From positions 1 through 20,456 of the IMG/VR virus record IMGVR_UViG_3300030099_006427: a stretch of DNA of 20,456 nucleotides; one strand, written 5' to 3'. Shown here in pieces: positions 1 to 13,093 of this stretch. The translations under genes and the position numbers were made by a program. A model generated the notes under the pieces. The model made no database searches, had not been told where the DNA came from, and saw only the letters and a list, made by a program, of their open reading frames with translations. Source of the DNA: a virus. Every line of letters begins with the position of its first letter. Within the stretch, counting starts at the first letter, position 1.

Positions 1-429
1 ATGGTTATTGATTGTCGTGTGGGAATGTTTCATCGCAGAAACAAAGGGCTTTGGCAACTCGTTCAAAAGTTTCGTTCTAATCCAAGACAATTTTACAAGA
101 AAAAGAATGAAACTTGGCAAGAAGCAAGGAACAGGTTAGTTGGATCAATTTATGGATTAGGTCTTGCAAAGACTACTTATGCGTTGGCATTGGGTTTTCC
201 GATTGAAGCACAACTTTGTTGCCTTGATGTTCACTTGTTGCGTTTTATGGGACATGACTTGAAGAAAGGTCACGCAAGTTCAGAAAAACAATACGAAGAT
301 ATGGAGAACGAGTGGCTTGATCGTTGCAACAAGATTGACGCATCTCCGAATGTTGTACGAGAAATTTATTGGAATAATGTGCAGAACAGAAGAAACTCTC
401 GCTATTGGAGTTACTGCTTAGAGAAGTGA
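1..429 (+). CDS. HhH-GPD DNA glycosylase-like protein (possibly 5'-truncated)
   Basis: Probable base-excision-repair DNA glycosylase of the helix-hairpin-helix superfamily. Residues 52-64 (GLGLAKTTYALAL) look like the HhH hairpin, and CLDVHLLR at 74-81 matches the strand-helix segment that carries the essential Asp (here D76) in the endonuclease III/MutY/OGG fold. The Lys of bifunctional glycosylases is not obviously at its usual place, so this could be monofunctional or only a structural relative. At 142 aa it is shorter than cellular members (about 210 aa). It begins at base 1, so more N-terminal sequence may lie outside the window. The downstream gene overlaps its stop. The family call is from motif memory, not from a search. 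Confidence 0.6.
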   Translation: MVIDCRVGMFHRRNKGLWQLVQKFRSNPRQFYKKKNETWQEARNRLVGSIYGLGLAKTTYALALGFPIEAQLCCLDVHLLRFMGHDLKKGHASSEKQYEDMENEWLDRCNKIDASPNVVREIYWNNVQNRRNSRYWSYCLEK

Positions 430-620
430 GAGAGTTAACTAGACAAGAATTTATTTGCAAAGACATTCACTATAACAACGCAAAGGTTGCAGAGTTATGT
501 GGTTATCCAAAAGCAATCAAGCTACTAGAAAAGAAGTTTAGCGTTCACAATCCAAAAAGAAAGATAGGCAAAAGAAGACTAGTCAGAAAAAATGGAAACA
601 AACTCGCACACAATGTCTAA
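426..620 (+). CDS. Small basic hypothetical protein
   Basis: No family recognised. The frame is open from a TTG at 405; GTG at 426 is preferred because it forms a GTGA overlap with the stop of the upstream gene, a typical translational-coupling arrangement. It encodes about 64 aa with a strongly basic C-terminal tail (KRKIGKRRLVRK). The next gene starts at ATG 613, inside its last codons. There is no ATG start and no Shine-Dalgarno sequence, so the reality of this gene rests mainly on its packing between two neighbours. Confidence 0.4.
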   Translation: MRELTRQEFICKDIHYNNAKVAELCGYPKAIKLLEKKFSVHNPKRKIGKRRLVRKNGNKLAHNV

Positions 621-786
621 TATACAACTTACCGATATGTGGTTTGACGGAAAATTTAATGAAGTTGCATCATATATTATAGACTCAAAAGAATTTATGG
701 AGAAAGATAGATTGATAGATTTTTGTTTGTATTTCCATAAGTATGTTGGAAGAGACGAATTACAAATCTTACAGAAACTCATTTAA
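613..786 (+). CDS. Small acidic hypothetical protein
   Basis: Fifty-seven residues, rich in aromatic and acidic residues; no recognised family. The frame also has an ATG at 592, but ATG 613 gives an 8-nt overlap with the upstream stop, a spacing that recurs elsewhere in this window (for example 6200 and 6393). It is the last gene before the strong promoter at 790-818, so it probably ends the upstream transcription unit. Confidence 0.45.
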   Translation: MSNIQLTDMWFDGKFNEVASYIIDSKEFMEKDRLIDFCLYFHKYVGRDELQILQKLI

Positions 787-789
787 TGC

Positions 790-818
790 TTGACAATCAA
801 GCCAAATTAAGGTAGAAT
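790..818 (+). promoter_or_regulatory. Sigma-70 promoter of the ligase gene
   Basis: TTGACA at 790-795, 17-nt spacer, TAGAAT at 813-818. The ATG at 825 is 6 nt after the -10, so the mRNA should be leaderless. Confidence 0.9.
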
Positions 819-824
819 ATATAC

Positions 825-2012
825 ATGATCGAAAAATTGCAAACACTATACAAAATCGACTCGCAAGGCAGATTGCGAGAGTGGACAATGAATGTCGATG
901 GCAACAAGTTTTATGCCATCAAAGGCTTAGTCGAAGGTAAGAAGACCCAAGACAAACCTACTATCGCAACTCCAAAGAATGTCGGTAGGTCAAACGAAAC
1001 GACTGCAACTGCACAAGCACGATTTGAAGCTCAAGCAAAGTGGCAGAAGAAGATTGATTCGGGTTACGCAATATCCGAAGAGGATGCGAAGGTAAAGAAG
1101 TTTTTCGAGCCTATGCTCGCATTGTCTTATGATGACAGAAAAAACGAGATCGCTTATCCTGTTTATTCTCAACCAAAGCTCGATGGCATTCGTTGCATCG
1201 TTCGACAAGAGAATGACGAGATCGTAGGTAGAACTCGTAATGGTAAGATCATCGAATGTATTCCTCATATACTAGATAGTTTGAAGGGATTTTTCATGGT
1301 TCATCCGCAAGCTATTCTCGATGGTGAGTTGTACAATCACGAATACAAAGAAGATTTCAACAAGATTACTTCGCTTGTTCGCAAGCAAAAACCTGTTCGA
1401 TCTGCTAAAGAAACCGATAAGGCATTTGCAAAGAAGGAAGCTAAGTGGCAAGAATCTTTGATCGAATCAGCAGATAAGATTCAGTATTGGGTTTACGATA
1501 TGCCAAAGCTCAATGATGTAATTAACGAAAAAACTTTGTTCGATTTCAGAATGACTGAACTCAAGGACAAGCTAATCACAAGAAAAGATTGTATCGTTAT
1601 TGTCGAAACCAATGAAGTTTATTCAGAAGGTAATCTCGATAACCTGTACGGACAATATCTTGAACAAGGATACGAAGGTCAAATGATTCGCAATGATGTA
1701 GGATATGACGCAAACAAGCGTAGCAAGAATCTACTCAAGCGTAAAGACTTTATGGATGCCGAATACAAGGTTGTCGATATTGATGAAGGTAATGGTAATC
1801 GTAGTGGTACTGCAAAACATCTTGTGTGCTATTGCGACAAAACCAAACAACAATTCAATTCTAATATCAAAGGTTCATTTGATTACCTCAAAGAAATCTA
1901 TGATAATCGTGACGAGTATATCGGAAAGTCTGCTACGATCAAGTTCTTTCAGTTGACACCCGATGGAATTCCTCGCTTTCCCTATGCAATTGCTTTTCGT
2001 GACTACGAGTAA
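825..2012 (+). CDS. ATP-dependent DNA ligase
   Basis: Seals nicks in duplex DNA through a covalent ligase-AMP intermediate, for phage replication, recombination and repair. The 395-aa protein has the nucleotidyltransferase motifs in order: motif I KLDGIR with the AMP-accepting Lys118, motif III LDGEL at 165-169, motif IV EGQMIR at 284-289 and motif V LLKRK at 303-307. A C-terminal OB-fold-like region follows (about 310-395). The N-terminal ~100 residues contain a KNVGRSNETT segment seen in the WGR-like front part of some viral and phage ligases. The start is fixed by a perfect promoter 6 nt upstream, with no room for a ribosome binding site. A small gene overlaps the 3' end. Confidence 0.93.
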   Translation: MIEKLQTLYKIDSQGRLREWTMNVDGNKFYAIKGLVEGKKTQDKPTIATPKNVGRSNETTATAQARFEAQAKWQKKIDSGYAISEEDAKVKKFFEPMLALSYDDRKNEIAYPVYSQPKLDGIRCIVRQENDEIVGRTRNGKIIECIPHILDSLKGFFMVHPQAILDGELYNHEYKEDFNKITSLVRKQKPVRSAKETDKAFAKKEAKWQESLIESADKIQYWVYDMPKLNDVINEKTLFDFRMTELKDKLITRKDCIVIVETNEVYSEGNLDNLYGQYLEQGYEGQMIRNDVGYDANKRSKNLLKRKDFMDAEYKVVDIDEGNGNRSGTAKHLVCYCDKTKQQFNSNIKGSFDYLKEIYDNRDEYIGKSATIKFFQLTPDGIPRFPYAIAFRDYE

Positions 2013-2220
2013 TTATAGCTTGATTGATTGGGATAAAGGAAATACCCTTGTTGAAGGCATTCCATTGACTCCGCAAGAAGCACACGATCTGAACTACGCT
2101 TTAGCAATCAATAATACAACCAAACGATATGTTAAGGATTACCAAGTAGAAGATAATAGTATAGAAAAACATATACAATACGATAATATAAAACATATCA
2201 ACATACAAAACAACAAATAA
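1984..2220 (+). CDS. Hypothetical protein overlapping the ligase 3' end
   Basis: About 78 aa, unknown function. The frame is open from ATG 1963; ATG 1984 or GTG 1999 would reduce the overlap with the ligase (stop at 2010-2012). The convincing protein-like part starts near the ligase stop and contains TPQEAHDLNYALAINNTTKR, a plausible helical region. The C-terminus is rich in Asn, Ile, His and Lys and looks low-complexity. No promoter lies between it and the ligase, so it is presumably coupled to ligase translation. Start uncertain. Confidence 0.5.
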   Translation: MQLLFVTTSNYSLIDWDKGNTLVEGIPLTPQEAHDLNYALAINNTTKRYVKDYQVEDNSIEKHIQYDNIKHINIQNNK

Positions 2221-2280
2221 AATACTTATCATGTTCCCTATAAATAACTTAATTAAAATTTACATTAAATACTTGAATAA

Positions 2281-2329
2281 TAGTGGGTTGAAGTGGGGCG
2301 AAGTGGTTCAAGAAGGGTGAACGACTTAA
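2281..2329 (+). repeat. Intergenic GC-rich repeat element, degenerate copy (E1)
   Basis: Contains AAGGGTGAACGACTTA, close to the core of the copy at 4379-4425, but the rest is diverged. TATAAT follows at 2347-2352 without a recognisable -35, so I do not call a promoter. The surrounding gap 2221-2388 holds nothing else I can support. Confidence 0.45.
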
Positions 2330-2388
2330 ATATATAAAAATATAAGTATAATAATTTCAGACTAACATACAAATAATACTACAAAATA

Positions 2389-2799
2389 ATGAATATAGTA
2401 ATTGATAATTATAGAATAAGAAGATATGACTCTCTTAACCTTTGTGTTGAAGTACATAAGCAAATGGGCAAAAGCAAAAACCCATATGGCAGAAATGGAA
2501 AGCCGAAAAATGGCGAAATTGCACAAAAAAATGAATCAAATAAACCCAAATATAAGTGGGATTTAGTTTGTTATTCACCTACATTAGATTATTGCTTGAA
2601 GAAATTGGTAGAGCATTGCTTGACAAATAAAGAAGAAATAAATACTATACAGAGTTTAAGAGATCAAATAACCCAATTAAATGAAGAAATTACTAAAATT
2701 AGCGAGGCAAATAACCGCTCAATCGAAGAAAATATTTTGTCAAATAACGACTTCTACGAAGAAAGAGCAGACCAAATCGCAGAAGAAGCTCTATATTAA
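2389..2799 (+). CDS. Hypothetical phage protein with C-terminal coiled coil
   Basis: 136 aa. The central KYKWDLVCYSPTLDYCLKKLVEHC segment (split: KYKWDLVCYSPTLDY, CLKKLVEHC) resembles small phage proteins in which a Trp-containing strand is followed by a helix with the pattern xxLxxALxxLV; that resemblance is from memory and unverified. Residues ~80-110 (IQSLRDQITQLNEEITKI) form a likely coiled coil, suggesting oligomerisation. No clear promoter or Shine-Dalgarno sequence precedes the ATG, although TATAAT lies 36 nt upstream. Confidence 0.6.
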   Translation: MNIVIDNYRIRRYDSLNLCVEVHKQMGKSKNPYGRNGKPKNGEIAQKNESNKPKYKWDLVCYSPTLDYCLKKLVEHCLTNKEEINTIQSLRDQITQLNEEITKISEANNRSIEENILSNNDFYEERADQIAEEALY

Positions 2800-2850
2800 G
2801 CGAAATTCTCACGGATTTCCGACTATTTACGAAGAATAATAATATATCTC

Positions 2851-2863
2851 GCTGATTATCAGC
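2851..2863 (+). terminator. Possible weak terminator hairpin
   Basis: GCTGA-TTA-TCAGC, 5 bp, followed after a few bases by a T-rich stretch (tatatttattttt). It sits between the gene ending at 2799 and the promoter at 2892. Confidence 0.3.
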
Positions 2864-2891
2864 ACTTTATATTTATTTTTAACTTATTTGC

Positions 2892-2920
2892 TTGACATTT
2901 TAGCGTGTATAGTCTAATAT
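2892..2920 (+). promoter_or_regulatory. Sigma-70 promoter of the tandem-paralogue operon
   Basis: TTGACA 2892-2897, 17-nt spacer, TAATAT 2915-2920; ATG at 2931 is 10 nt downstream, giving a leader of only a few nucleotides. Confidence 0.85.
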
Positions 2921-2930
2921 TATATCTATT

Positions 2931-3173
2931 ATGCAGAACAACGGAGAACTTAGCGAACAGGAAGATGCTGAATTTAGAGATAATGCTCTGAATATCATTC
3001 AACTTGTAACCAAAAACGAAGAAACCTTTACTGAAGAGGAAGAAAACGCTATTCATATAGCCAATGATGCCCTTGAGTTTTGGATTAGCGAAGGAAATGT
3101 GCGTAGAGCGTATTGGGAAACGCAAAATTCGCTTAATATTATAAAAAATATTATAGAATCAAAGCAATATTAA
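2931..3173 (+). CDS. Acidic hypothetical protein, tandem paralogue A
   Basis: 80 aa, acidic and predicted all-helical; function unknown. It is clearly related to the next gene: both carry a TEEE segment, then HxxND, then F.I...N..RA..E.QN.LN..K.I near the C-terminus. Its stop TAA and the ATG of the next gene share one base (TAATG), so the pair is translationally coupled. First gene of a three-gene operon driven by the promoter immediately upstream. Confidence 0.75.
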   Translation: MQNNGELSEQEDAEFRDNALNIIQLVTKNEETFTEEEENAIHIANDALEFWISEGNVRRAYWETQNSLNIIKNIIESKQY

Positions 3174-3394
3174 TGGAAAACAGCGACCAAATACAAGAAA
3201 AATTGTGTGAAATAAGCTGGATGATAATTGAAAAGCTCGATGACCCAAATATAGCCCTTACAGAAGAAGAAAAAGAGACTCTTCACCTATCAAATGATAC
3301 AATGATGTTCTTTATTGAACAAGAAAATTGGGAAAGAGCCTTAACTGAAGGACAAAATACATTAAATAAGCTAAAACAAATAACTGAATTTTAA
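3173..3394 (+). CDS. Acidic hypothetical protein, tandem paralogue B
   Basis: 73 aa, acidic, predicted helical. Shares the TEEE/HxxND/QNxLN framework with the preceding gene, indicating a tandem duplication followed by divergence. Starts by a TAATG overlap with its neighbour. Function unknown; two related helical proteins made in coupled fashion could form a heterodimer (inference). Confidence 0.75.
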   Translation: MENSDQIQEKLCEISWMIIEKLDDPNIALTEEEKETLHLSNDTMMFFIEQENWERALTEGQNTLNKLKQITEF

Positions 3395-3398
3395 TATT

Positions 3399-3599
3399 AT
3401 GCATATAAGGCGAGAAATAGATCATATATTGGACGAAATAAACGAAATAATTGCAAAAAATAAAGACTCAAATAAAGAAAAGTCTGAAGACAAGGCAATG
3501 ATCGAACATTTAGAGCGAACCATCAACCTCAAGACTGACGATGGCAAGCGAGCAAAGGGTATATGGACTGAAAGTCCCGAATTTATTTACCGAAACTGA
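3399..3599 (+). CDS. Charged hypothetical protein
   Basis: 66 aa, starts 4 nt after the previous stop, so it is part of the same operon. The N-terminal two-thirds is a highly charged helix (likely coiled coil), followed by KTDDGKRAKGIWTESPEF. No family recognised. The gene ends immediately before the promoter of the long structured RNA. Confidence 0.6.
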   Translation: MHIRREIDHILDEINEIIAKNKDSNKEKSEDKAMIEHLERTINLKTDDGKRAKGIWTESPEFIYRN

Positions 3600-3608
3600 A
3601 AAAAAGTC

Positions 3609-3637
3609 TTGACTTTTGTTAGAATATAGAGTATAAT
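3609..3637 (+). promoter_or_regulatory. Sigma-70 promoter of orphan RNA 1
   Basis: TTGACT 3609-3614, 17-nt spacer, perfect TATAAT 3632-3637. Predicted start of transcription about 3644. No substantial reading frame follows; the next ATG opens only a three-codon frame. Confidence 0.9.
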
Positions 3638-3643
3638 TATATT

Positions 3644-4080
3644 ATAACAATCAGAGAAGACCAACTCTTAAAAATGGGTCATTGATCTTTTACATTTTAT
3701 AGAATTTGGATAAGGTTAGCTACCATATCCTGTGAGTGACTTCTCGATGATGAGTCGAGAACTAGCGAATAAGTCTGTGATAAGCGGACTAAGGTATGCA
3801 GATTCTCTGTGGTGGAGATGTAGAGTCCAATCGGATGAGCATAAGACGAATACCAAGTCTAATCTGTAGTGCGAAGTAGGTAAACTGAAACTTTAGTTTA
3901 TCCCGAAAAGTTGAAGGTGAATAAGTATTCCTTCCTCACACATTTTTCTTTCTTAATCATAACTTTGGTTGTAGCGTAGTCGGACTCAATGCGAGCTAAG
4001 ACTCTCTTCCCTTACGAGCTGAAGACTGCAACCAATCTTTTAGCCTCTACAAGTCTACCTCATGGCTTGTAGGGGCTTTT
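3644..4080 (+). ncRNA. Orphan long structured RNA 1 (~437 nt), unidentified
   Basis: A stand-alone RNA gene: strong promoter upstream, no coding potential inside, and a 12-bp intrinsic terminator at its end. Helices I can pair by eye: GGATA 3708-3712 with TATCC 3726-3730; a perfect 7-bp TTCTCGA/TCGAGAA hairpin at 3741-3761 with loop TGATGAG; CAGATT 3799-3804 with AATCTG 3861-3866; TAAACT 3881-3886 with AGTTTA 3895-3900; and GGTTGTAG 3967-3974 with CTGCAACC 4026-4033 closing a 3' domain. It is not a tRNA, tmRNA or 6S RNA by inspection. Size, solitary promoter and phage setting recall the ornate phage RNAs GOLLD and ROOL, but I cannot match the sequence. A group I-like P4/P7 arrangement was considered and not supported. 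Confidence 0.75.
4042..4080 (+). terminator. Intrinsic terminator of RNA 1
   Basis: Stem AGCCTCTACAAG (4042-4053) pairs over 12 bp, with one G-U, with CTTGTAGGGGCT (4066-4077); loop 12 nt; T-run TTTT then CATTTT. Confidence 0.88.
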
Positions 4081-4097
4081 CATTTTACATTATTATT

Positions 4098-4170
4098 TTG
4101 AGAGGCAGTAATACGCCTAGTAGGTTAAAACCCTTGTAAGCTTTATCAAGTGTGGCGACTTGACTCTCAA
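4098..4170 (+). other. Cloverleaf-like structured segment, 73 nt
   Basis: TTGAGAG (4098-4104) pairs with CTCTCAA (4164-4170), enclosing short hairpins GGC/GCC, GGTT/AACC, CTTG/CAAG and TCAAGT-GTGGCG-ACTTGA. The length equals that of a tRNA without CCA, but the D-loop and TTCGA T-loop signatures are absent, so it is not called a tRNA. Could be a tRNA relic, an RNA processing element or chance. Confidence 0.3.
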
Positions 4171-4279
4171 TTCAATTTCAACAAATAAACAATCAAATAC
4201 TATAGAAATACTCATACTAGCAACAATAGGTTTAATATGCGGAGTGATACAAGCTATAAAAGAAAATATAGACTACTAA
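4160..4279 (+). CDS. Possible single-TM micro-peptide (TTG start)
   Basis: A 39-codon frame from TTG, with no ATG available. The central stretch EILILATIGLICGVIQAI is a convincing membrane helix, which is why I list it. No promoter or ribosome binding site is visible, and it overlaps the cloverleaf-like segment. The rest of 4083-4378 holds nothing else I can support. Confidence 0.28.
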   Translation: MTLNSISTNKQSNTIEILILATIGLICGVIQAIKENIDY

Positions 4280-4378
4280 ATAATGAAATTGCAAAACACA
4301 AATACCCAAATATAGGTTGAATGTAGTAAAAATAAATTAAAATTAAGTCGCCAATAAGTTTCGTAAGTCGTTAAGGGT

Positions 4379-4425
4379 GAACGAGTTGCGGGCTGGCGGC
4401 TCTCCCAAATTTTATAACTCGTTGA
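4379..4425 (+). repeat. Intergenic GC-rich repeat element (E2)
   Basis: Begins GAACGAGTTGCGGG, has a GC-rich centre, and ends with the inverted copy TAACTCGTTGA. Preceded by GTAAGTCGTT and followed by ACAACAAACTGC, which recurs before the promoter at 12061. Lies upstream of the promoter at 4470. Confidence 0.7.
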
Positions 4426-4469
4426 CTCGTACTGAGTTACAACAAACTGCAATTAATCGCAAAAAAAGC

Positions 4470-4497
4470 TTGACTTTGTTAGGGTTTCTGTCATACT
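4470..4497 (+). promoter_or_regulatory. Sigma-70 promoter
   Basis: TTGACT 4470-4475, 16-nt spacer, extended -10 TGTCATACT (hexamer 4492-4497). ATG 4505 lies 7 nt after the -10 (leaderless). Confidence 0.85.
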
Positions 4498-4504
4498 TGT
4501 ATAT

Positions 4505-4705
4505 ATGAAAGAAACAGTAAAGATACTAATGTCCCGTGATGGCTTCACTCAAGCTGAGGCGGTTAAACAAGTAGTTGGCTTCTTTAAGAGAATGCAACAA
4601 GATATCCAAGAAGGTGGCGATCCATTCGAGTGGGAAAATGACTTCATCCAAGAGTTTGGTCTTGAACCTGACTACTTCGAGGATTTTATTTTAAGGCTTT
4701 GCTAA
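4505..4705 (+). CDS. Small conserved-type phage protein (EGGDPFE motif)
   Basis: 66 aa, acidic. The pattern of an amphipathic N-terminal helix, then EGGDPFEWEN, then FGLEPDYFEDFI resembles small proteins widespread in phages and plasmids that end with GLEPDYLExLL; function unknown. The promoter places the ATG almost at the transcript start, so the start is secure. Monocistronic: the next gene has its own promoter starting 8 nt after its stop. Confidence 0.8.
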   Translation: MKETVKILMSRDGFTQAEAVKQVVGFFKRMQQDIQEGGDPFEWENDFIQEFGLEPDYFEDFILRLC

Positions 4706-4712
4706 AAAAGGC

Positions 4713-4741
4713 TTGACAATCGCACGAAAATTTGAGAGAAT
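4713..4741 (+). promoter_or_regulatory. Sigma-70 promoter
   Basis: TTGACA 4713-4718, 17-nt spacer, GAGAAT 4736-4741 (compare TAGAAT of the ligase promoter). ATG 4749 is 7 nt downstream (leaderless). Confidence 0.8.
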
Positions 4742-4748
4742 ATATACT

Positions 4749-4982
4749 ATGCTAAACGATAAACAAGTTGAAGAACAAGTAGAAATGTGGAATTGGAACT
4801 CGAACATCTTCGAGATTTACGATGAGATTCGTCACGAAAGTGACTACGATAAAGCAAGGCTTTTATCTCACGCTTACCAATTCTTTAACCAAGATCACAT
4901 GATCGCAGAACTCGCAGATCATCTTTGCGTCAACATAGCAGAAGCTAAAGAAGGTGCATCGGTAATCGCTAAAACCAAATGA
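4749..4982 (+). CDS. Hypothetical acidic helical protein
   Basis: 77 aa. Although the frame is open further upstream, ATG 4749 is chosen because the upstream TTG is part of the -35 box. The sequence is helix-rich with several Trp residues (VEMWNWNSN) near the N-terminus; no recognised family. Its stop overlaps the next start as ATGA (4979-4982), so the two are coupled. Confidence 0.75.
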   Translation: MLNDKQVEEQVEMWNWNSNIFEIYDEIRHESDYDKARLLSHAYQFFNQDHMIAELADHLCVNIAEAKEGASVIAKTK

Positions 4983-5245
4983 GTCATATGTCAGAATTAT
5001 CCGTTCAACAACAGAACGAGGAAAAAGAGTTGAACATAAAAGATCTTGAAGTAATCTTTGATGTTCTTAATGTCTTCACTCCTTCCGACATTGCTCATGT
5101 ATATCCCGAAATGGGAACAGATGAATTCATGAAGGATGTGAATTGCACTTGGGCGAAAGTTCTTGATATAATCAAACGAGAAGATCGCAACAAGGGTTAC
5201 AAAAAGCTCAAAGAATCTGCAAAAATTCTTTTCGATAATCCTTGA
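4979..5245 (+). CDS. Hypothetical protein
   Basis: 88 aa from the ATGA overlap at 4979; an internal ATG at 4988 is an alternative start. Predicted helical with a Lys-rich C-terminus; contains LNVFTPSDIAHVYPEMGTDE. Unknown function. Its final codons run into the -35 box of the next promoter (5242-5247). Confidence 0.72.
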   Translation: MSHMSELSVQQQNEEKELNIKDLEVIFDVLNVFTPSDIAHVYPEMGTDEFMKDVNCTWAKVLDIIKREDRNKGYKKLKESAKILFDNP

Positions 5246-5270
5246 CAACAACAACAAAAGCTGACATACT
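5242..5270 (+). promoter_or_regulatory. Sigma-70 promoter
   Basis: TTGACA 5242-5247, 17-nt spacer, CATACT 5265-5270. ATG 5277 follows after 6 nt (leaderless). The -35 overlaps the upstream stop codon region. Confidence 0.88.
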
Positions 5271-5276
5271 ATACCT

Positions 5277-5606
5277 ATGAAAGAAAAAATTGAAGTACCA
5301 CAAAAGTCTTATGCTGAGTTTGAAAAGCTCGCATGGGTAAGTACCAAGGCAATTCCTGTCATTGGAAGCAAGTTGAATGTAAAAATCAATGGAATTGGCG
5401 AAGCAATCGTCAAGAAGTATTTTGTTGAGCATGGTTTCATTGGAATGATTGTTCAACCATTGAATCCTCCAAGTTGGTATGTTAATCAGAATGGTGCAGA
5501 CGAACCATGTCATGTATTTCCTGCTGAATGTACCGAGTTTGAAGTTCGCAAGGACAATGGAGAAGTAAACCAAGAGTTTTACGATTCTATTCTCAAGGCA
5601 AATTAA
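5277..5606 (+). CDS. Hypothetical phage protein, beta-rich
   Basis: 109 aa. The alternating pattern IPVIGSKLNVKINGIGEAIV followed by a long second strand region (FIGMIVQPLNPP) suggests a compact beta-barrel-like fold, and I associate this N-terminal pattern with small proteins of aquatic phages. No catalytic motif. Monocistronic, with its own leaderless promoter and another promoter immediately after its stop. Confidence 0.8.
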   Translation: MKEKIEVPQKSYAEFEKLAWVSTKAIPVIGSKLNVKINGIGEAIVKKYFVEHGFIGMIVQPLNPPSWYVNQNGADEPCHVFPAECTEFEVRKDNGEVNQEFYDSILKAN

Positions 5607-5609
5607 GGC

Positions 5610-5637
5610 TTGACTTTCACATATAACCTGTCATAAT
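5610..5637 (+). promoter_or_regulatory. Sigma-70 promoter of a six- or seven-gene operon
   Basis: TTGACT 5610-5615, 16-nt spacer, extended -10 TGTCATAAT (hexamer 5632-5637). ATG 5649 is 11 nt downstream, leaving a leader of about 5 nt. Confidence 0.85.
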
Positions 5638-5648
5638 TATAGTATAAA

Positions 5649-5858
5649 ATGAGTATTGCAAAAAACGCTAGAGCATCAAGAGTAATGTCAAATGTTTCCA
5701 ACGGAACATATGTAAGAGGTTCAAAGTTCGCTAACTTTGGCTCGATTGCAGAAGATAGTATCTACTATCATACCATGTTGGCACAAAAGGCAGACAAAGA
5801 ACGAGCAGAACGAATTGCCCAAAGCAAGATTCGTCTTAGACAGAAAGGATTAGCATAA
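5649..5858 (+). CDS. Small basic hypothetical protein
   Basis: 69 aa, Arg/Lys-rich C-terminus (QKADKERAERIAQSKIRLRQ). No family recognised. First gene of a chain in which every following gene starts by overlapping the previous stop; here TAATG at 5856-5860. Confidence 0.72.
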   Translation: MSIAKNARASRVMSNVSNGTYVRGSKFANFGSIAEDSIYYHTMLAQKADKERAERIAQSKIRLRQKGLA

Positions 5859-6091
5859 TGGAAGATATGGAACTCAATCCCGAAATGTACAAGGAGTATG
5901 TTGAGGAACATTACGATGTCGAACCCGATTATCCAACCGCAGGAGGATTTATGCTCGTTGACCACACAAGCATGGCACAAATGGGAGGACAAAAACCTTG
6001 CTTCCACTCAATGAATGATGCGGTAATGTGGGCAGAGAATAATCTCGACCACAATTGTTATAATGTATATAAACTACATTGCGTTTTATGA
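5858..6091 (+). CDS. Hypothetical acidic protein
   Basis: 77 aa with N-terminal acidic segment, then GGFMLVDHTSMAQMGGQKP and a C-terminal DAVMWAENN...NVYKLHCVL. The layout (a short strand, then an Ala-rich helix) is like that of small phage modifiers, but no family is recognised. Coupled by one-base overlap to the upstream gene and by ATGA to the next. Confidence 0.7.
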   Translation: MEDMELNPEMYKEYVEEHYDVEPDYPTAGGFMLVDHTSMAQMGGQKPCFHSMNDAVMWAENNLDHNCYNVYKLHCVL

Positions 6092-6207
6092 AAGAACTAA
6101 TGGAAGAAATCAAAGCCCTTCAATGGCGATTGCAAAATTGCAATGGAGGAAAAATCACAATCACTAGTCAAGGATTTGACATTAAGTTAGGTAAAGAACA
6201 TGAGTAG
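6088..6207 (+). CDS. 39-aa hypothetical protein
   Basis: Starts with ATG at 6088 in an ATGA overlap with the preceding stop. Begins MKELMEEIKALQWRLQ, a likely short coiled coil, then GGKITITSQGFDIKLG, a beta hairpin-like end. The overlap on both sides (8 nt with the next gene) makes a real coupled gene likely. Confidence 0.6.
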   Translation: MKELMEEIKALQWRLQNCNGGKITITSQGFDIKLGKEHE

Positions 6208-6400
6208 CGAAGATCAACTCAGAAACTATCTACATTTCTTGGGCTTAAAATCCGAGCAAGTCGAGTATGCGACCAACATCGCATACGATAGACTATCTTT
6301 CAACCTTAAAGTTGAAAAAGAAAATTCGGAAAAGTGGCATTATCATCCCGAAGAAGTATCGAACAGAAAATGGAGTGAAATTATCAAACAAGATGATTGA
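6200..6400 (+). CDS. Small hypothetical protein
   Basis: 66 aa, starts 8 nt inside the previous gene. Polar and acidic, no recognised domain; contains a short aromatic stretch EKWHYHPEEVSNRKW. The next gene starts within its last codons (ATG 6393), continuing the coupled chain. Confidence 0.62.
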   Translation: MSSEDQLRNYLHFLGLKSEQVEYATNIAYDRLSFNLKVEKENSEKWHYHPEEVSNRKWSEIIKQDD

Positions 6401-6629
6401 AGAAGTAAGTTACATAAAAGAATATTGTCAATTGCCTCCTTTGGAAGCACCTTTGTATGACGAAGACGCAGACACTTGGTCTCTTTGGTTCGAAGAGAAG
6501 CAATGCTCTTGGTTTCCTTATCCCGAAGAAGGATTGCTAGCCATTCCTTTTGAGGACAAATACGAAGCACAAAAAGCCTATCTATATCTTACAGATGAAG
6601 AAGACACAACTACAGCAAAAAATTCGTGA
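6393..6629 (+). CDS. Acidic Trp-rich hypothetical protein
   Basis: 78 aa. The frame is open further upstream, but ATG 6393 preserves the 8-nt overlap seen in this operon. Very acidic with Trp/Phe/Tyr clusters (DADTWSLWFEEKQCSWFPYP). Such small acidic proteins can be DNA mimics or host inhibitors, but nothing here proves it. The 3' end overlaps the next gene. Confidence 0.65.
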   Translation: MIEEVSYIKEYCQLPPLEAPLYDEDADTWSLWFEEKQCSWFPYPEEGLLAIPFEDKYEAQKAYLYLTDEEDTTTAKNS

Positions 6630-6750
6630 ACTTGGCTTCGCGCTAGCTGATCAAGAGCTAAGGCGCCAGCGTACAGCTGACTACCTAGGTCAACGTTTGC
6701 TGCATAAGATTCTGCTGGAAAAACTGTATAAGACAGAAAAGCGGGCCTAA
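6595..6750 (+). CDS. Small basic hypothetical protein
   Basis: 51 aa from ATG 6595, overlapping the upstream gene by 35 nt. Mostly a charged helix (QQKIRELGFALADQELRRQR). No family recognised. Its base composition is noticeably richer in G+C than its neighbours towards the 3' end, which leads directly into a GC-rich intergenic element. Confidence 0.5.
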   Translation: MKKTQLQQKIRELGFALADQELRRQRTADYLGQRLLHKILLEKLYKTEKRA

Positions 6751-6762
6751 AGCACTGGGTTA

Positions 6763-6807
6763 CAACGAGTTACGGCTCGGGCCCTCCCGCGCAGTCGTAT
6801 TGTGCAA
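6763..6807 (+). repeat. Intergenic GC-rich repeat element (E3)
   Basis: AACGAGTTACGG start, GC-rich centre, TCGTATTGTGCAA end. The 50 nt from its end to the promoter closely match the same part upstream of 10690. Confidence 0.72.
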
Positions 6808-6828
6808 GAATTTAGTTGAATTTTAGGC

Positions 6829-6856
6829 TTGCAATTGCACGAAATTCTGTCATAAT
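6829..6856 (+). promoter_or_regulatory. Sigma-70 promoter
   Basis: TTGCAA 6829-6834, 16-nt spacer, extended -10 TGTCATAAT (6851-6856). ATG 6869 is 12 nt downstream. Confidence 0.75.
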
Positions 6857-6868
6857 TATATATAAACA

Positions 6869-7048
6869 ATGAGTAAGACAAACAAAGAAAGAGGCATTTC
6901 ATGCCCGACTAAACACCCAAGTTTAAACGCTATATGCAAGAAGTACTCGCATACAGGAGCAAAACCACTTGTTCCTCACATCAATGACGAGAATGTCATG
7001 GTGACTCAAAAGGTGCGAAATGCCCAAGAAAAAAATGCTAATCGGTAA
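6869..7048 (+). CDS. 59-aa hypothetical protein with Cys/His pattern
   Basis: Starts just downstream of a promoter. Contains ISCPTKHPSLNAICKKYSHT, with two Cys and two His that could bind a metal, though the spacing is not a standard zinc finger. Otherwise polar and basic. Monocistronic: the next promoter begins 9 nt after its stop. No family recognised. Confidence 0.65.
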   Translation: MSKTNKERGISCPTKHPSLNAICKKYSHTGAKPLVPHINDENVMVTQKVRNAQEKNANR

Positions 7049-7056
7049 CTTTTTTC

Positions 7057-7085
7057 TTGACAGACAACCAAAAATTTAGTATAAT
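7057..7085 (+). promoter_or_regulatory. Sigma-70 promoter of the DUF932-like gene
   Basis: TTGACA 7057-7062, 17-nt spacer, perfect TATAAT 7080-7085. Unusual for this window in leaving a ~30-nt leader before ATG 7122. Confidence 0.9.
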
Positions 7086-7121
7086 TATAGAATAATTTAA
7101 CCAACAAAAGCTAAAAAAATT

Positions 7122-7889
7122 ATGAGTAAAAGTATAGACCTATCAGTATGCGGAACAAAGCAAGTTCCGTTTTCGCAAATCAAGAGCGTTCAAACGCCCG
7201 AAGCAACAGAATCTTGGCAACCAATTAGCCATTCATTCTTGGTTGATCGAGTATCGAAGCAAATCGAAGACAATGGTTGGAGTATCAAGGATACTTATCA
7301 TTCTCTCCATCGTTTCGGTCAAAGGTACTTTGGCTTGTTCCATGTGGAAAACACAGGTTCAGATGCCGAAGATCGTGGAACGATCATTGGACTTCGCAAC
7401 TCGCACGACAAGTGCTTTCCTGCAGGATTGTGCATGGGAAATGCACCATTCGTTTGTTCCAATCTTATCTTCACTAACGAGGTTGTTCTCGCTCGCAGAC
7501 ATACCAAGAATATCTTGCGTGACTTGAACCAAGTTATTGCTCGCACTCTTGGTCAAATGACTGAAACTTGGGCAAATGACGAACTTCGTCTTGATGCTTA
7601 CAAGCAGTATGAGCTTGACAACGCACAAGCAAACGACATTGTGATTCGTTCCTATCAAAATGGTGCGATCAGCAAGGCAAAGATTGCCGATGTTGTGGAA
7701 CAATGGCAAAAGCCCGAACATGAAGACTTTGAAGAAAGGAATATGCACTCGTTGTATAACGCTTTCACTCATGTACTCAAAGGCGGTGTTCATGCTTTAC
7801 CTGCTCGTTCTCAAGCGTTGCATGGAGTTCTAGACTCAGTAGTCGGACTTGCCAAGCAAGAAGTCGCAGAAGCCGAACTCGTAGCATAA
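7122..7889 (+). CDS. DUF932-like phage protein
   Basis: 255 aa. The central block GLRNSHDK (90-97), FVCSNLIF (110-117) and RRHT (125-128) resembles the DUF932 family of phage and plasmid proteins, whose role is not established; the assignment is from pattern memory. The C-terminal third is helical (YNAFTHVL...LHGVLDSVVGLA). Its strong promoter and longer leader with an A-rich box (AAAAAAATTATG) instead of a Shine-Dalgarno sequence suggest high expression by a different initiation route from the leaderless genes around it. Followed 6 nt later by a small gene and then a strong terminator. Confidence 0.75.
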   Translation: MSKSIDLSVCGTKQVPFSQIKSVQTPEATESWQPISHSFLVDRVSKQIEDNGWSIKDTYHSLHRFGQRYFGLFHVENTGSDAEDRGTIIGLRNSHDKCFPAGLCMGNAPFVCSNLIFTNEVVLARRHTKNILRDLNQVIARTLGQMTETWANDELRLDAYKQYELDNAQANDIVIRSYQNGAISKAKIADVVEQWQKPEHEDFEERNMHSLYNAFTHVLKGGVHALPARSQALHGVLDSVVGLAKQEVAEAELVA

Positions 7890-7895
7890 CAATTT

Positions 7896-8126
7896 ATGAA
7901 AAAGCAAAAATACCTGCAATCCGTAGTCGATAACCTCAATGGTCGTTTTGTTTCACTTCTAGTGAAGGAAGGCGAACAACGCAAGGTTTATTCAGCAAGA
8001 GTGAATTCCACTACTGCTAAGAATGTAATGTTCACCGATACCAATGGTGGAAACCGCAAGGTCAATCGTAGGCATATTCTGCGAGCAACTTGTGCGGATA
8101 GAACTTTCAAGAGGTCTATCGGCTAA
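7896..8126 (+). CDS. Small basic protein, possible beta-barrel
   Basis: 76 aa, basic, starting 6 nt after the DUF932-like gene, so co-transcribed. The segment GRFVSLLVKEGEQRKVYSAR followed by NVMFTDTN and KVNRRHILRATC has a strand-rich look, suggesting a small beta-fold nucleic-acid-binding protein (inference). A terminator follows its stop. Confidence 0.72.
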   Translation: MKKQKYLQSVVDNLNGRFVSLLVKEGEQRKVYSARVNSTTAKNVMFTDTNGGNRKVNRRHILRATCADRTFKRSIG

Positions 8127-8163
8127 ATAGGAAACCCAAATCCTCCAAATATGGGGGTCAAAT

Positions 8164-8195
8164 AACCTCTCCGATTTTTTCGGGGAGGTTTTTTT
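8164..8195 (+). terminator. Strong intrinsic terminator
   Basis: AACCTCTCCGA pairs over 11 bp (one G-U) with TCGGGGAGGTT around a T-only loop, followed by a run of seven T. Ends the DUF932-like operon. Confidence 0.92.
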
Positions 8196-8206
8196 GTTGC
8201 TGACTA

Positions 8207-8253
8207 TCAACGACTTATGGCACGGCGGCTGGCCCAAATTACCTATCTCGTTG
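8207..8253 (+). repeat. Intergenic GC-rich repeat element (E4)
   Basis: TCAACGACTTA start, GGCGGCTGGCCC centre, TATCTCGTTG end (inverted relative to the start). Sits between the terminator and the promoter at 8300. Confidence 0.68.
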
Positions 8254-8299
8254 TTCTTTAACGCTTTACAACTATTTTACTAATTTGTGCATTTTATGC

Positions 8300-8327
8300 T
8301 TGCAATTAGCCCAAAACCTGTCATAAT
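8300..8327 (+). promoter_or_regulatory. Sigma-70 promoter
   Basis: TTGCAA 8300-8305, 16-nt spacer, extended -10 TGTCATAAT (8322-8327). ATG 8335 after 7 nt (leaderless). Confidence 0.82.
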
Positions 8328-8334
8328 TATACTT

Positions 8335-8574
8335 ATGAAAATTGAGAAAGAATTCGAAGAAAACGACAACGAGCTTAACGCAGAGGAAGCAATGGAGGCA
8401 TCAATGGCATTTATTAATGACATCTTGATTCAACCTGCTCTCGAAAGAGATGAGCTTAACAAACAGGATGCAAAGATTTTGGGAGTAGTTGCAGACGCAT
8501 TGAAGGTTATCGCACAAAAGGCAAAGGCTTACGAAATGCTACGAGAGAATGGCAACGAATATTTTCGAAATTAA
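8335..8574 (+). CDS. Acidic helical hypothetical protein
   Basis: 79 aa. ATG 8335 is chosen over an upstream in-frame ATG because the promoter places transcription initiation right here. N-terminus very acidic (EKEFEENDNELNAEEAMEAS), then an Ala/Lys-rich helical part. Likely all-alpha. Function unknown; monocistronic, followed by another promoter 3 nt after its stop. Confidence 0.75.
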   Translation: MKIEKEFEENDNELNAEEAMEASMAFINDILIQPALERDELNKQDAKILGVVADALKVIAQKAKAYEMLRENGNEYFRN

Positions 8575-8577
8575 GCC

Positions 8578-8606
8578 TTGACAAAACACAAAAAATTTCA
8601 TAGAAT
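8578..8606 (+). promoter_or_regulatory. Sigma-70 promoter
   Basis: TTGACA 8578-8583, 17-nt spacer, TAGAAT 8601-8606. ATG 8613 after 6 nt (leaderless). Confidence 0.9.
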
Positions 8607-8612
8607 TATAGC

Positions 8613-9002
8613 ATGATAAAGAAAAACACTCAACTAAAAGGCTTCGATGATTTGGTTTTTATCCAACACGGAGGATTCGCTTGTGGCAAGGCAGTTCACG
8701 CTCGACTAAGTTTCGGATGGAGAGACAAGGAGAACTTTGATCAATTTACGATCTCGGTCGTTCAAAACCAAGGAGATGGTTCGGGCTTGTATGGTCACGA
8801 AGATGACAACACTTACGAAGTCGCAATGTGGTTTCAAGATCGAGATAGCATGCTTCCATTGGGGAAGTATGACGATGTTCTCGCCTATCAAACTCCTGCA
8901 CAAGTTACTCAGCTAATGCATCAAGCACAACTGAATGACTTCGCTTGGGTTTCTCTTCTGCACAATCTAAGAGACGAGTTAGAACAAGAACTTAAAAACT
9001 AA
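8613..9002 (+). CDS. Hypothetical protein
   Basis: 129 aa, mixed alpha/beta. N-terminal half is strand-rich (DDLVFIQHGGFACGKAVHAR, then FDQFTISVVQNQGDGSGLYG), C-terminal half helical. No catalytic signature recognised. First gene of a three-gene unit with the next ORF 1 nt after its stop. Confidence 0.78.
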   Translation: MIKKNTQLKGFDDLVFIQHGGFACGKAVHARLSFGWRDKENFDQFTISVVQNQGDGSGLYGHEDDNTYEVAMWFQDRDSMLPLGKYDDVLAYQTPAQVTQLMHQAQLNDFAWVSLLHNLRDELEQELKN

Positions 9003-9003
9003 T

Positions 9004-9147
9004 ATGTATATTATATTAAAAAACGGAGAAGTAATGGACTTTGAACCAAGACCAATCGAGCAAGCCATTTGGCTTATTCAACAACTCGAATTGGGTCTTG
9101 ACAGACTCAAGGAACATTCACCCTATACAATCGGAAAGGCAAGCTAA
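9004..9147 (+). CDS. 47-aa hypothetical protein
   Basis: Starts 1 nt after the previous stop and ends in a TAATG overlap with the next start, so it is a coupled middle gene. Contains IEQAIWLIQQLELGLDRLKE, an amphipathic helix. Unknown function. Confidence 0.65.
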   Translation: MYIILKNGEVMDFEPRPIEQAIWLIQQLELGLDRLKEHSPYTIGKAS

Positions 9148-9374
9148 TGAGTTATAACGGATGGAAAAACTATGAGACTTGGAATGTCGCTCTTTGGATC
9201 GGCAATGACGAAGGAATCTACAACTTCGCCAAAGAGTGTGCAAGCTATCAAGACTTTGCTAACGATATGCAGACCTACTTCGGATCAACCGAAACACCTG
9301 ACGAAGTCGCTTGGAATGATTCAGCGTTAGACACAGACGAGCTTGACGAGTTGATTACAGAACTCGCAAGCTAA
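9147..9374 (+). CDS. Small conserved phage protein (NGWxNYETWNVALW family)
   Basis: 75 aa. The N-terminus NGWKNYETWNVALWIGND is a signature I recognise from a widespread small phage and plasmid protein family of unknown function (a DUF; DUF7249 is my best recollection). The family typically has 70-100 aa and an acidic C-terminus, as here. Translationally coupled to the upstream micro-gene. Last gene of its operon; a GC-rich intergenic element follows. Confidence 0.85.
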   Translation: MSYNGWKNYETWNVALWIGNDEGIYNFAKECASYQDFANDMQTYFGSTETPDEVAWNDSALDTDELDELITELAS

Positions 9375-9381
9375 TGATATA

Positions 9382-9429
9382 GAACGACTTAGGGCATCAG
9401 CCCCTGGCGCGCAGCGCTTAACTCTTTGA
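9382..9429 (+). repeat. Intergenic GC-rich repeat element (E5)
   Basis: GAACGACTTAGGGCATCAGC start, GGCGCGCAGCGC centre, AACTCTTTGA end. Lies between the operon end at 9374 and the promoter at 9474. Confidence 0.65.
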
Positions 9430-9473
9430 GGATCAGCAACTTACAACTATCTTTAGTTTTATTAATTTTTTTG

Positions 9474-9501
9474 TTGACTTTACCCGAGAATCTGTCATAC
9501 T
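9474..9501 (+). promoter_or_regulatory. Sigma-70 promoter
   Basis: TTGACT 9474-9479, 16-nt spacer, extended -10 TGTCATACT (9496-9501). ATG 9508 after 6 nt (leaderless). Confidence 0.87.
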
Positions 9502-9507
9502 ATACTT

Positions 9508-9666
9508 ATGATTAAAGCAAAAGATAGAATGAAAGAGTTTAACAAATTGCCTAGCAACACAATCCCTTGGGAGACATTCAAGCGACTAGTCGGTCAGTTT
9601 GGATTAGAAAAGGCAATCGAAAAGTCTCAACAAATTATCAAGAAAAGGCTTGACAAGCAAGTGTAA
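9508..9666 (+). CDS. 52-aa basic hypothetical protein
   Basis: Leaderless micro-gene. Basic and helical; PWETFKRLVGQFGLEKAIEK looks like a compact helical unit. Its last codons (RLDKQV) contain the -35 box of the next promoter, so the GP88 promoter is embedded in this coding sequence. No family recognised. Confidence 0.72.
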   Translation: MIKAKDRMKEFNKLPSNTIPWETFKRLVGQFGLEKAIEKSQQIIKKRLDKQV

Positions 9667-9678
9667 TTATACTATTAT
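9650..9678 (+). promoter_or_regulatory. Sigma-70 promoter of the GP88-like gene
   Basis: TTGACA 9650-9655 (inside the upstream gene), 17-nt spacer, TATTAT 9673-9678. ATG 9685 after 6 nt (leaderless). Confidence 0.88.
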
Positions 9679-9684
9679 TATACC

Positions 9685-10407
9685 ATGATTAAAACGACAT
9701 TGCTTACATCGGGTAATCAAAAGATTCTCAAAGGAGAAAAACTTGGTTACATTACCAAAGGAATTCACCTTGCACCTGCGAATCTTTCGGGCTATGAAAC
9801 TTGCAGATGGAGAAGCAAAGGTTGCACAATGTCTTGCTTGAATACTGCTGGAAGAGGACAGATGAACACGATTCAAGATTCACGCATTGCCAAGACAAAA
9901 CTTTTCTTTGAGCAAAAGTCTGATTTTCTTCTAAAGCTAGCCAAAGAGATTTCTTCGTCTATTAAGTCCGCAATCAAGAAGGATATGCAAGCCGTATTTC
10001 GCTTGAACCTTACGAGTGATCTTATGTGGGAAAATGAAAAGGATGCAGAAGGATTGACTATCTTTGAGCGTTTCAAGGATACAACTTTTTACGATTATAC
10101 TAAGTCGTTTTCTCGCATGGCAAAGTTCATCAACCAAGCAGAAGATTTTCCTTCCAACTACCACTTGACTTTCTCTCGTTCAGAAAGTAACGACAAGGTT
10201 GCAGAAATGGTTCTTGCTATGGGTGGAAATGTTGCGGTAGTATTTCGCAATCAGTTGCCCAAGACTTGGAAAGGTTTTGAGGTTGTCAATGGTGATGAAA
10301 CCGATTTGCGTTTCCTTGACAAGAAAGGCGTTGTCGTTGGCTTGATCGAGAAAGGTCGAGCAAAGAAAGACGAGACAGGATTTGTGCAAGAAGGAGTAAA
10401 CTCTTAA
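9685..10407 (+). CDS. GP88-family phage protein
   Basis: 240 aa. The N-terminal region has the hallmarks of the phage gene-product-88 family: GIHLAPANLSGYETC, then RSKGCTMSCLNTAGRG, with Cys40, Cys47 and Cys51 that could bind metal, followed by SRIAKTKLFF. The biochemical role of the family is unknown. The middle part includes AVFRLNLTSDLMWE and YHLTFSRSESND, and the C-terminus ends with a strand-rich GLIEKGRAKKDE segment. Leaderless promoter embedded in the upstream micro-gene. Family assignment from pattern memory, but the pattern is distinctive. Confidence 0.85.
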   Translation: MIKTTLLTSGNQKILKGEKLGYITKGIHLAPANLSGYETCRWRSKGCTMSCLNTAGRGQMNTIQDSRIAKTKLFFEQKSDFLLKLAKEISSSIKSAIKKDMQAVFRLNLTSDLMWENEKDAEGLTIFERFKDTTFYDYTKSFSRMAKFINQAEDFPSNYHLTFSRSESNDKVAEMVLAMGGNVAVVFRNQLPKTWKGFEVVNGDETDLRFLDKKGVVVGLIEKGRAKKDETGFVQEGVNS

Positions 10408-10414
10408 TTTACCC

Positions 10415-10443
10415 TTGACAACTCAAAGCAATTAGGATAGTAT
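10415..10443 (+). promoter_or_regulatory. Sigma-70 promoter
   Basis: TTGACA 10415-10420, 17-nt spacer, TAGTAT 10438-10443. ATG 10450 after 6 nt (leaderless). Confidence 0.87.
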
Positions 10444-10449
10444 AGTATA

Positions 10450-10611
10450 ATGGATTATTACGAAAGCGCCAAGGATACAATCATAACGAGAGAAAGAGCT
10501 TTGCTTGAATTGGCAAGGCATCATTGCGAAGACATCGAGCAATTTTTTGATGACTTAGGAGATCGAGAAAGTTATGATGCGCAAGAAGTGCTTGTTTGGT
10601 TAGGCTACTAA
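10450..10611 (+). CDS. 53-aa acidic hypothetical protein
   Basis: Leaderless micro-gene encoding an acidic, helix-rich peptide (ESAKDTIITRERALLELARH, then ESYDAQEVLVWLGY). No recognised family. Monocistronic, followed by a GC-rich intergenic element and then the second structured-RNA region. Confidence 0.72.
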   Translation: MDYYESAKDTIITRERALLELARHHCEDIEQFFDDLGDRESYDAQEVLVWLGY

Positions 10612-10622
10612 AACCTTACTAT

Positions 10623-10668
10623 TCAACGAGTTAGGGCCAGGGCCCTGCCCGCCAATCGTATTGTGCAA
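10623..10668 (+). repeat. Intergenic GC-rich repeat element (E6)
   Basis: TCAACGAGTTAGGG start, palindromic centre CAGGGCCCTG, TCGTATTGTGCAA end. One of the best-preserved copies in forward orientation. Confidence 0.75.
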
Positions 10669-10689
10669 TTATTTAGTTGTATTTTAGCC

Positions 10690-10717
10690 TTGACTTTTAA
10701 GGTTATTCTGTCATAAT
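10690..10717 (+). promoter_or_regulatory. Sigma-70 promoter of structured RNA 2
   Basis: TTGACT 10690-10695, 16-nt spacer, extended -10 TGTCATAAT (10712-10717). Unlike its siblings there is no ATG at the predicted start (~10724). Confidence 0.83.
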
Positions 10718-10723
10718 TATACT

Positions 10724-10990
10724 TAGTTCTTTTGATAATCACTTTATGCCAACGAGTTCTGTCCGAGCTGCAAATCGGAGGAGATAAGAGAGGTGCGGAT
10801 TGCAGTCCTAATTAAACTCTTGTAGGTTCGACTCCTACCTCGTATGGCTCGCCTTTTGTTAGCGGAAGTAGTTCGGGCTCTGTAGGGGCAAATCTCAAGA
10901 GGGCAACAATGGTCGCAAGCGACTCCTACATCCATGAATGAAAAAACTAACAAACTCAGAGTTTTCCGTCCTTTCTCATTCGTCAAAAAA
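10724..10990 (+). ncRNA. Structured RNA 2 with tRNA-like domain, 3' end approximate
   Basis: Starts at a strong promoter and has no long forward frame. 5' domain: ACGAG 10752-10756 pairs with CTCGT 10839-10843 (extendable by GCCA/TGGC with a bulge), CTGCAAATC 10768-10776 pairs with GATTGCAG 10798-10805, and a canonical T-arm GTAGG-TTCGACT-CCTAC lies at 10822-10838. This is a tRNA-like topology without anticodon arm or CCA. 3' domain: TGTAGG 10881-10886 pairs with CCTACA 10925-10930 around a GTCGC/GCGAC hairpin. Both domains use the same TGTAGG and CGACTCCTAC words, so alternative pairings are possible. It could be an independent RNA or a structured leader for the small frame at 10934. The 3' end is not marked by a clear terminator. 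Confidence 0.55.
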
Positions 10991-11017
10991 GGATACCACT
11001 TTACCCTTGACAATTAA
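10934..11017 (+). CDS. Possible 27-aa basic peptide downstream of RNA 2
   Basis: ATG frame reading MNEKTNKLRVFRPFSFVKKG and ending in HFTLDN, protein-like in composition. The last codons supply the -35 box of the next promoter, as in other micro-genes here. It overlaps a 10-codon frame (MVASDSYIHE) through ATGAATGA. If real, RNA 2 would be its regulatory leader. Confidence 0.35.
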   Translation: MNEKTNKLRVFRPFSFVKKGYHFTLDN

Positions 11018-11035
11018 GCTAAAACCTGCCATACT
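11007..11035 (+). promoter_or_regulatory. Sigma-70 promoter
   Basis: TTGACA 11007-11012, 17-nt spacer, CATACT 11030-11035. ATG 11042 after 6 nt (leaderless). Confidence 0.87.
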
Positions 11036-11041
11036 ATATAC

Positions 11042-11266
11042 ATGATTGAGAAAAATTGGAAACCACAACCTTCACAAAAAGCCGAGGAAGTAGATTACGC
11101 AATCACTTCTATTTTTGGCTTTGACCGCAAGGAACAAATTAAAAGCAAGAAGTGCGTCTTCTGTTCTGAAGAAGTCGAGCTTGATTCTTTCAAGGACGAA
11201 TTGTCACTCAAAGAGTATCACATCAGCGGAATGTGTCAGTCTTGCCAAGATAGAATGTTTGCATAA
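11042..11266 (+). CDS. Small zinc-ribbon protein
   Basis: 74 aa with two CxxC knuckles: C38-V-F-C41 and C65-Q-S-C68, separated by a DELSLKEYHISGMC segment. This is the layout of a small phage protein family with a treble-clef or ribbon-type zinc site and a conserved (L/I)SxxEFxISGxC run. Probably a nucleic-acid or protein adaptor; exact role unknown. Leaderless promoter; TAATG overlap with the next gene. Confidence 0.82.
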   Translation: MIEKNWKPQPSQKAEEVDYAITSIFGFDRKEQIKSKKCVFCSEEVELDSFKDELSLKEYHISGMCQSCQDRMFA

Positions 11267-11487: not shown

Positions 11488-11494
11488 ATTTATC

Positions 11495-11522
11495 TTGACA
11501 TTTGCCTAAAACCTGTCATACT
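11495..11522 (+). promoter_or_regulatory. Sigma-70 promoter
   Basis: TTGACA 11495-11500, 16-nt spacer, extended -10 TGTCATACT (11517-11522). ATG 11529 after 6 nt (leaderless). Confidence 0.88.
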
Positions 11523-11528
11523 ATACAT

Positions 11529-13092: not shown

Positions 13093-13093
13093 C

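Follow-up and report, generated by a model that had tools for sequence, protein, structure and literature searches.

We identified in a marine phage a predicted RNA of about 440 nt whose core (positions 3708-3940) is, judged by its sequence, a divergent form of the manA motif (RF01745). It is encoded in the window, by which we mean the entire stretch of DNA analysed (20,456 nucleotides). The window comes from a virus record of 33,003 bases in which a DNA ligase, PhoH and numerous small genes are encoded; the parts of the RNA unit all lie on the + strand. The manA family itself is known; what is new is that here a manA RNA forms a transcription unit of its own, headed by a boxA-type leader. We think it probable that this stand-alone, boxA-led unit works in the style of an rRNA operon and makes a structured manA-core RNA that acts in trans.

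The manA core and its variable domains

Searching positions 3400-4550 by cmscan with an E-value threshold assigned 3742-3939 to manA RNA (52.4 bits, E=2.8e-12), so the RNA is not the orphan that the original prediction took it for. The score is 2.8 bits short of the manA gathering score (55.2 bits), and at gathering thresholds Rfam yielded just one tRNA in the window and no manA. The low score is due to a 21-nt hairpin (TTCTCGA-TGATGAG-TCGAGAA, 3741-3761, defined in subfamily alignment A3), an insertion that separates the conserved GAATAA from the closing-helix strand GTGAGTGAC. This insertion was misread by cmscan as P1 and the 5' end was misaligned; the real P1 is the GGATA..TATCC hairpin at 3708-3730. 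Elsewhere the inserted hairpin was found only in locus L329, with a different paired sequence (CCACCC..GGGGTGG). A kinship with GOLLD or ROOL, to which the RNA had earlier been compared in style, found no support, since their covariance models gave no match on 3400-4550 even at E=10. Neither cmscan nor ARAGORN found HEARO, a group I intron, RNase P, tmRNA or tRNA in this region, and these too were rejected.

Four syntenic relatives carry manA downstream of a DNA ligase 58-70% identical to that of the window and on the same strand. They lack the inserted hairpin and score 73.6-84.4 bits, over the 55.2 cut-off. Scanning IMG/VR, whose records may be fragments, with an 18-mer common to the window and these four relatives retrieved 31 contigs. 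RNA of the window type is present in the window phage and at least 24 related contigs, with one copy per phage record; outside the 31 contigs retrieved, one member was found in a Marinimicrobia MAG (L341). Because members were gathered by an exact 18-mer, that stretch is invariant by construction and the diversity of the subfamily is understated. All but five of the 31 contigs group with the window RNA; these five (L321, L323, L325, L330 and L331) were set apart as a distinct manA subtype (GTGGTGGCGGAATAAC..) that has the 18-mer without a boxA leader, and several of these then carry repeated hairpins such as GTAGCAGGGATGCGTCTGCTAAA..AACGCA.

The homology is reciprocal. An independent model (R1), built from 23 subfamily members alone, found canonical manA RNAs of marine origin with E-values from 8e-11 to 4e-18; among the 23, the window member scores lowest against it (193.6 bits). 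Run on relatives without manA (L241, L242 and others), R1 found none. Blastn searches of INPHARED with the window RNA and the L276 RNA gave nothing useful, the Melnitz match being promoter-like sequence only. A loose manA sequence pattern returned mostly chance matches and was dropped for tighter ones. A weak manA match (29.8 bits, E 2e-4) was seen in a 208-kb phage (L278, positions 1501-1700), where it has a promoter to itself and precedes a terminase-like gene.

The core is closed by TGTGAG (3731-3736) pairing with CTCACA (3935-3940), where the manA core ends. This helix covaries, with GGGAG/CTCCC in canonical manA, TGTGGG/CCCACA in relatives and TGTGAG/CTCACA in the window representing compensatory changes. 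Within the core, the P3 hairpin AGTCTGT/GCGGACT (3772-3790) follows the conserved GAATAA and is supported by alignment and covariation. A multi-branch domain closed by TGCAGATT/AATCTGTA spans 3797-3868; all seven pairs of its helix (helix 5) change on both sides, as do all seven pairs of P1 (helix 1). The CAGATT/AATCTG helix drawn in the original prediction (3799-3804/3861-3866) proved real, being conserved and covarying in relatives. The multi-branch domain also contains a GUGGU loop (3809-3813), for which a tertiary pairing to ACC is possible by inspection (GGU-ACC versus GGC-GCC). A small hairpin AAAC/GTTT (3888-3899) and the 3' hairpin GAAGG/CCTTC (3913-3934) correspond to helices 9 and 10 of the joint alignment.

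If the RNA is structured as proposed, its homologues should covary, and this was found. In a MAFFT alignment of the 23 members, 20 of the 49 pairs in the consensus structure show double changes. MAFFT misaligned the two manA subfamilies when both were included, and an Infernal alignment (A4) of the subfamily with canonical manA was taken instead. In this joint alignment 96.5% of cells pair, and both partners change in 35 of the 49 pairs. It reaches a covariation score of 0.553, versus 0.163 for shuffled and at most 0.124 for slid alignments, and none of 500 shuffles matched it. Of the two results, that from MAFFT is the more independent, since the model itself shaped the joint alignment.

Outside the core, a variable 3' domain of the window (3967-4033) is predicted to fold as a hairpin GGTTGTAG..CTGCAACC (3967-3974/4026-4033), and no similar sequence was found among the relatives' loci fetched. 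Extra 3' domains also occur in L273, L275, L333 and L337, and extra 5' domains in L274, L275, L308, L326, L328, L334, L338 and L341. These variable domains look like exchangeable add-ons to a fixed core. Past the terminator, window positions 4096-4171 (TTTTGAGAG..CTCTCAATTC) share the flanks of the L274 5' domain, which lies in the interval between boxA and P1; the flanks also resemble the 5' domains of L275, L308 and L326. This stretch is possibly a mobile RNA domain.

Promoter, leader and terminator

In the unit (3609-4085) a near-consensus promoter is followed by about 440 nt of untranslated sequence and then by a strong intrinsic terminator; promoter and terminator were assigned as consensus matches. 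The sigma70-type promoter TTGACT-17-TATAAT (3609-3637), already pointed out in the original prediction, matches the consensus at 11 of 12 positions and places the predicted RNA start at about 3643-3645. It is in the top 7 of the 86 promoter-like sites of the window (positions 1-20000; 47.6 +/- 6.5 in shuffles). Most small genes of this phage have a near-consensus promoter of their own, and throughout the 33,003-base record the small genes are often each preceded by one. The terminator (4042-4077) ranks best in the window, which holds 27 terminator-like sites versus 14.4 expected. The original prediction was right about its presence and short on its length, as our scan gave a stem of 14 bp, not 12, with 7 G-C pairs, followed by TTTTCATTTT.

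No credible reading frame lies between promoter and terminator. Stops break all three forward frames and the largest ORFs on either strand are 45-46 aa, so a coding role was rejected, in agreement with the earlier estimate of about 437 nt lacking coding capacity. The region folds more stably than dinucleotide shuffles (z = -2.5; 0/100 as stable). With a promoter, a terminator, no notable frame and a fold better than 100 shuffles, the observation of a stand-alone structured RNA was correct, and its homologues covary with no conserved protein frame. The next ORF starts at 4505, about 430 nt past the terminator and behind its own promoter. Before it lies a hairpin-rich non-coding stretch (4345-4402, AGTCGCCA..TGGCGGCT; fold z about -2), for which no relative was found save a 27-nt match covering a promoter in L245.

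The RNA begins with a leader hairpin, AGAG-(AAGACCAA)-CTCT (3653-3668). Most members have a covarying hairpin before boxA, with stem variants TTGAG/CTCAA, TTAAG/CTTAA, CTGAG/CTCAG and TCGAG/CTCGA. In the window a potential pseudoknot would form between the loop GACC (3659-3662) and GGTC (3677-3680), which directly precedes boxA. Such loop-tail pairing of at least 4 bp (4-5 bp) occurs in 8 members versus 1.0 expected, and 0/2000 permutations were as high. One member (L327) carries a second hairpin of the leader type (TTGAGAAGGGGAACTCAA, later ACCTC) 3' of the core and ahead of the terminator.

A boxA-like element, TTGATCTTTTACATTTT (3682-3698), with the core GATCTTTTACA at 3684-3694, was recognised by pattern and consensus match. 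The pattern [CT]G[AT]TCTTT[AT] is present between promoter and core in all 25 members with sequence there, compared with 1.3% of shuffles and 0/98 canonical manA. Because this pattern had been read off these same sequences, the test was repeated with the published boxA consensus GYTCTTTAANA (PMC5725501), which is gamma-proteobacterial and may not be that of the host. Matches with at most one mismatch were found in 21/25 members (5 exact and 16 with one mismatch; the other 4 have two), versus 5.4% of shuffles and 1/98 canonical manA. The window copy has two mismatches to this consensus. The exact leader 17-mer occurs once in each of nine window-type loci and in no other of the 307 loci examined.

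BoxA is a known signal recruiting NusB/S10 (PMC10250234, PMC4807359); for antitermination complexes on rrn it is both required and by itself enough (PMC10250234). In the leader of E. coli rrnB, which we inspected alongside, the elements come in the same order: P2, hairpin and then TGCTCTTTAACA. The 16S leader of the Marinimicrobia MAG with L341 lacks this boxA, and another genome of the same phylum has TGATCTTTGAAAA in its 16S leader. The subfamily closing helix TGTGGG resembles rrn boxC (TGTGTGGGCAC), which we treat as a possible coincidence since canonical manA uses GGGAG.

Genomic context and proposed role

manA was described as a riboswitch candidate and 5'-UTR cis-regulatory element (PMC2864571), and the layout of canonical marine manA (n=84) fits this view: an ORF begins a median of 49 nt downstream, a terminator within 150 nt is found in 15, and a TATAnTAT-like box typically lies directly before P1. 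As 15/84 have a terminator before the next gene (L147, L151, L235, L179, L198, L219, L221, L226 and L238 are among such loci), stand-alone forms may exist among canonical manA too.

The window RNA does not occupy a 5'-UTR position, and most of the 23 members share its stand-alone layout. A promoter matching at least 10/12 positions precedes the core in 22/23, 32-275 nt before P1. A strict scan detected terminators in 15/23 and about 6 more, with longer loops, were seen by eye; by these sequence matches, most members end before, and separately from, the downstream genes. The next ORF varies between phages and has a promoter of at least 9/12 in front of it in 15/23. In L273, L275, L276, L309, L314, L317, L319, L326 and L332, a small gene that is conserved (M.TLKDILSNYGYI.S.QLAE..) lies downstream of the RNA behind a promoter of its own; it does not follow the RNA in the window. 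L311 and L334 have no evident terminator and a gene 28 and 51 nt past the core, respectively, so read-through or cis-regulation is possible in these two.

In the arrangement we propose, transcription from a strong sigma70 promoter of host type would yield an untranslated RNA of about 440 nt, whose first 60 nt or so would form a hairpin (a pseudoknot in some members) followed by boxA. Host NusB/S10 would bind boxA, allowing RNA polymerase to escape Rho-dependent termination on the folded, untranslated RNA, and would perhaps aid its folding, as for rRNA. Since such an RNA is exposed to Rho and boxA recruits NusB/S10, an rRNA-style unit is the simplest account. The product would be a manA core self-closed by TGTGAG/CTCACA, with optional 5' and 3' domains and, in most members, an end at an intrinsic terminator. 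It would work in trans, either as a stable folded RNA or as part of an RNP and not as a switch for the next gene, because the next gene is not the same from phage to phage and in most cases has a promoter of its own. Use of Nus factors, abundance of the RNA and action in trans are what we infer from this organisation.

The layout of promoter, aptamer, terminator and gene is also the usual one for a transcription-attenuating riboswitch, in which a ligand sensed by the manA core would set read-through of the terminator at 4042-4077 into downstream genes. The listing of manA as a riboswitch candidate (PMC2864571) and the genes directly behind the core in L311 and L334 agree with this. However, the gap between core and terminator varies from 0 to 240 nt with no overlap, and the terminator sequence differs in each phage. 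The variable downstream genes, their own promoters in 15/23 members and the distance of about 430 nt from the window's terminator to its independently promoted next ORF speak against it as well, and we regard attenuation as rather unlikely.

The presence of boxA in 25/25 members could instead mean that an abundant boxA RNA soaks up NusB/S10, so that host rRNA synthesis falls during infection. There is a precedent in overproduced nut RNA, which titrates Nus factors and lowers rRNA expression (as cited in PMC4807359), but such a decoy would leave the conserved, covarying manA core unexplained and the canonical manA RNAs of cyanophages have no boxA. We find it improbable. It is more improbable still that the unit is a vestigial leader, an ordinary 5' UTR manA element whose gene was lost or moved: the window member does score lowest of the 23 (193.6 bits to R1) and carries an insertion, but compensatory changes persist in its closing helix, the inserted hairpin is paired and common to L329, and the stand-alone layout is retained in more than 20 phages.

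The rRNA-style, trans-acting unit remains our preferred reading. On the wider proposition, that large marine phages turned the manA fold into an rRNA-operon-like free RNA gene acting in trans during infection, and that the manA family is not simply a riboswitch, our judgement is evenly balanced.

Comparison with known systems

Like GOLLD, ROOL and OLE, the window RNA is a stand-alone structured RNA, and GOLLD and ROOL also occur in phages. It differs from them in length, being about half as long or less, and at E<=10 their models match it neither in sequence nor in structure. The wcaG RNA (RF01761) is likewise a structured RNA, of cyanophage and marine occurrence, and a putative cis element, but has no cmscan match in the window RNA.

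With the rRNA leader (boxB-boxA-boxC) and lambda nut, the unit shares a promoter, a hairpin and a boxA-like element within about 50 nt, followed by a long untranslated RNA; the boxB-boxA order and about the same spacing from the promoter are those of the E. coli rRNA operon leader. The differences are a phage RNA product of about 440 nt, a hairpin able to form a pseudoknot and the boxA variant GATCTTTWACA. Here phages would be putting antitermination signals of the rRNA type to work for a non-coding RNA, a use that the gamma-proteobacterial boxA survey explicitly excluded (PMC5725501).

The closest system is manA itself (RF01745; Weinberg 2010). The core fold, P1 hairpin, closing helix, covariation and occurrence in marine phages are the same, as are the conserved GAATAA, TAAGGT, GTGGTG, ACC and TCC blocks, whereas the window RNA has an extra core hairpin and a score 2.8 bits short of the gathering score. 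The classification of manA is that of a 5'-UTR cis element, while here a promoter, a boxA leader and usually a terminator make it a separate unit. Since 2010 manA has counted as an orphan riboswitch candidate, and it still carries the annotation 'cis-reg'. A clade with manA as a separate, boxA-led RNA gene argues against the presumed regulation of the next gene and makes a role in trans testable.
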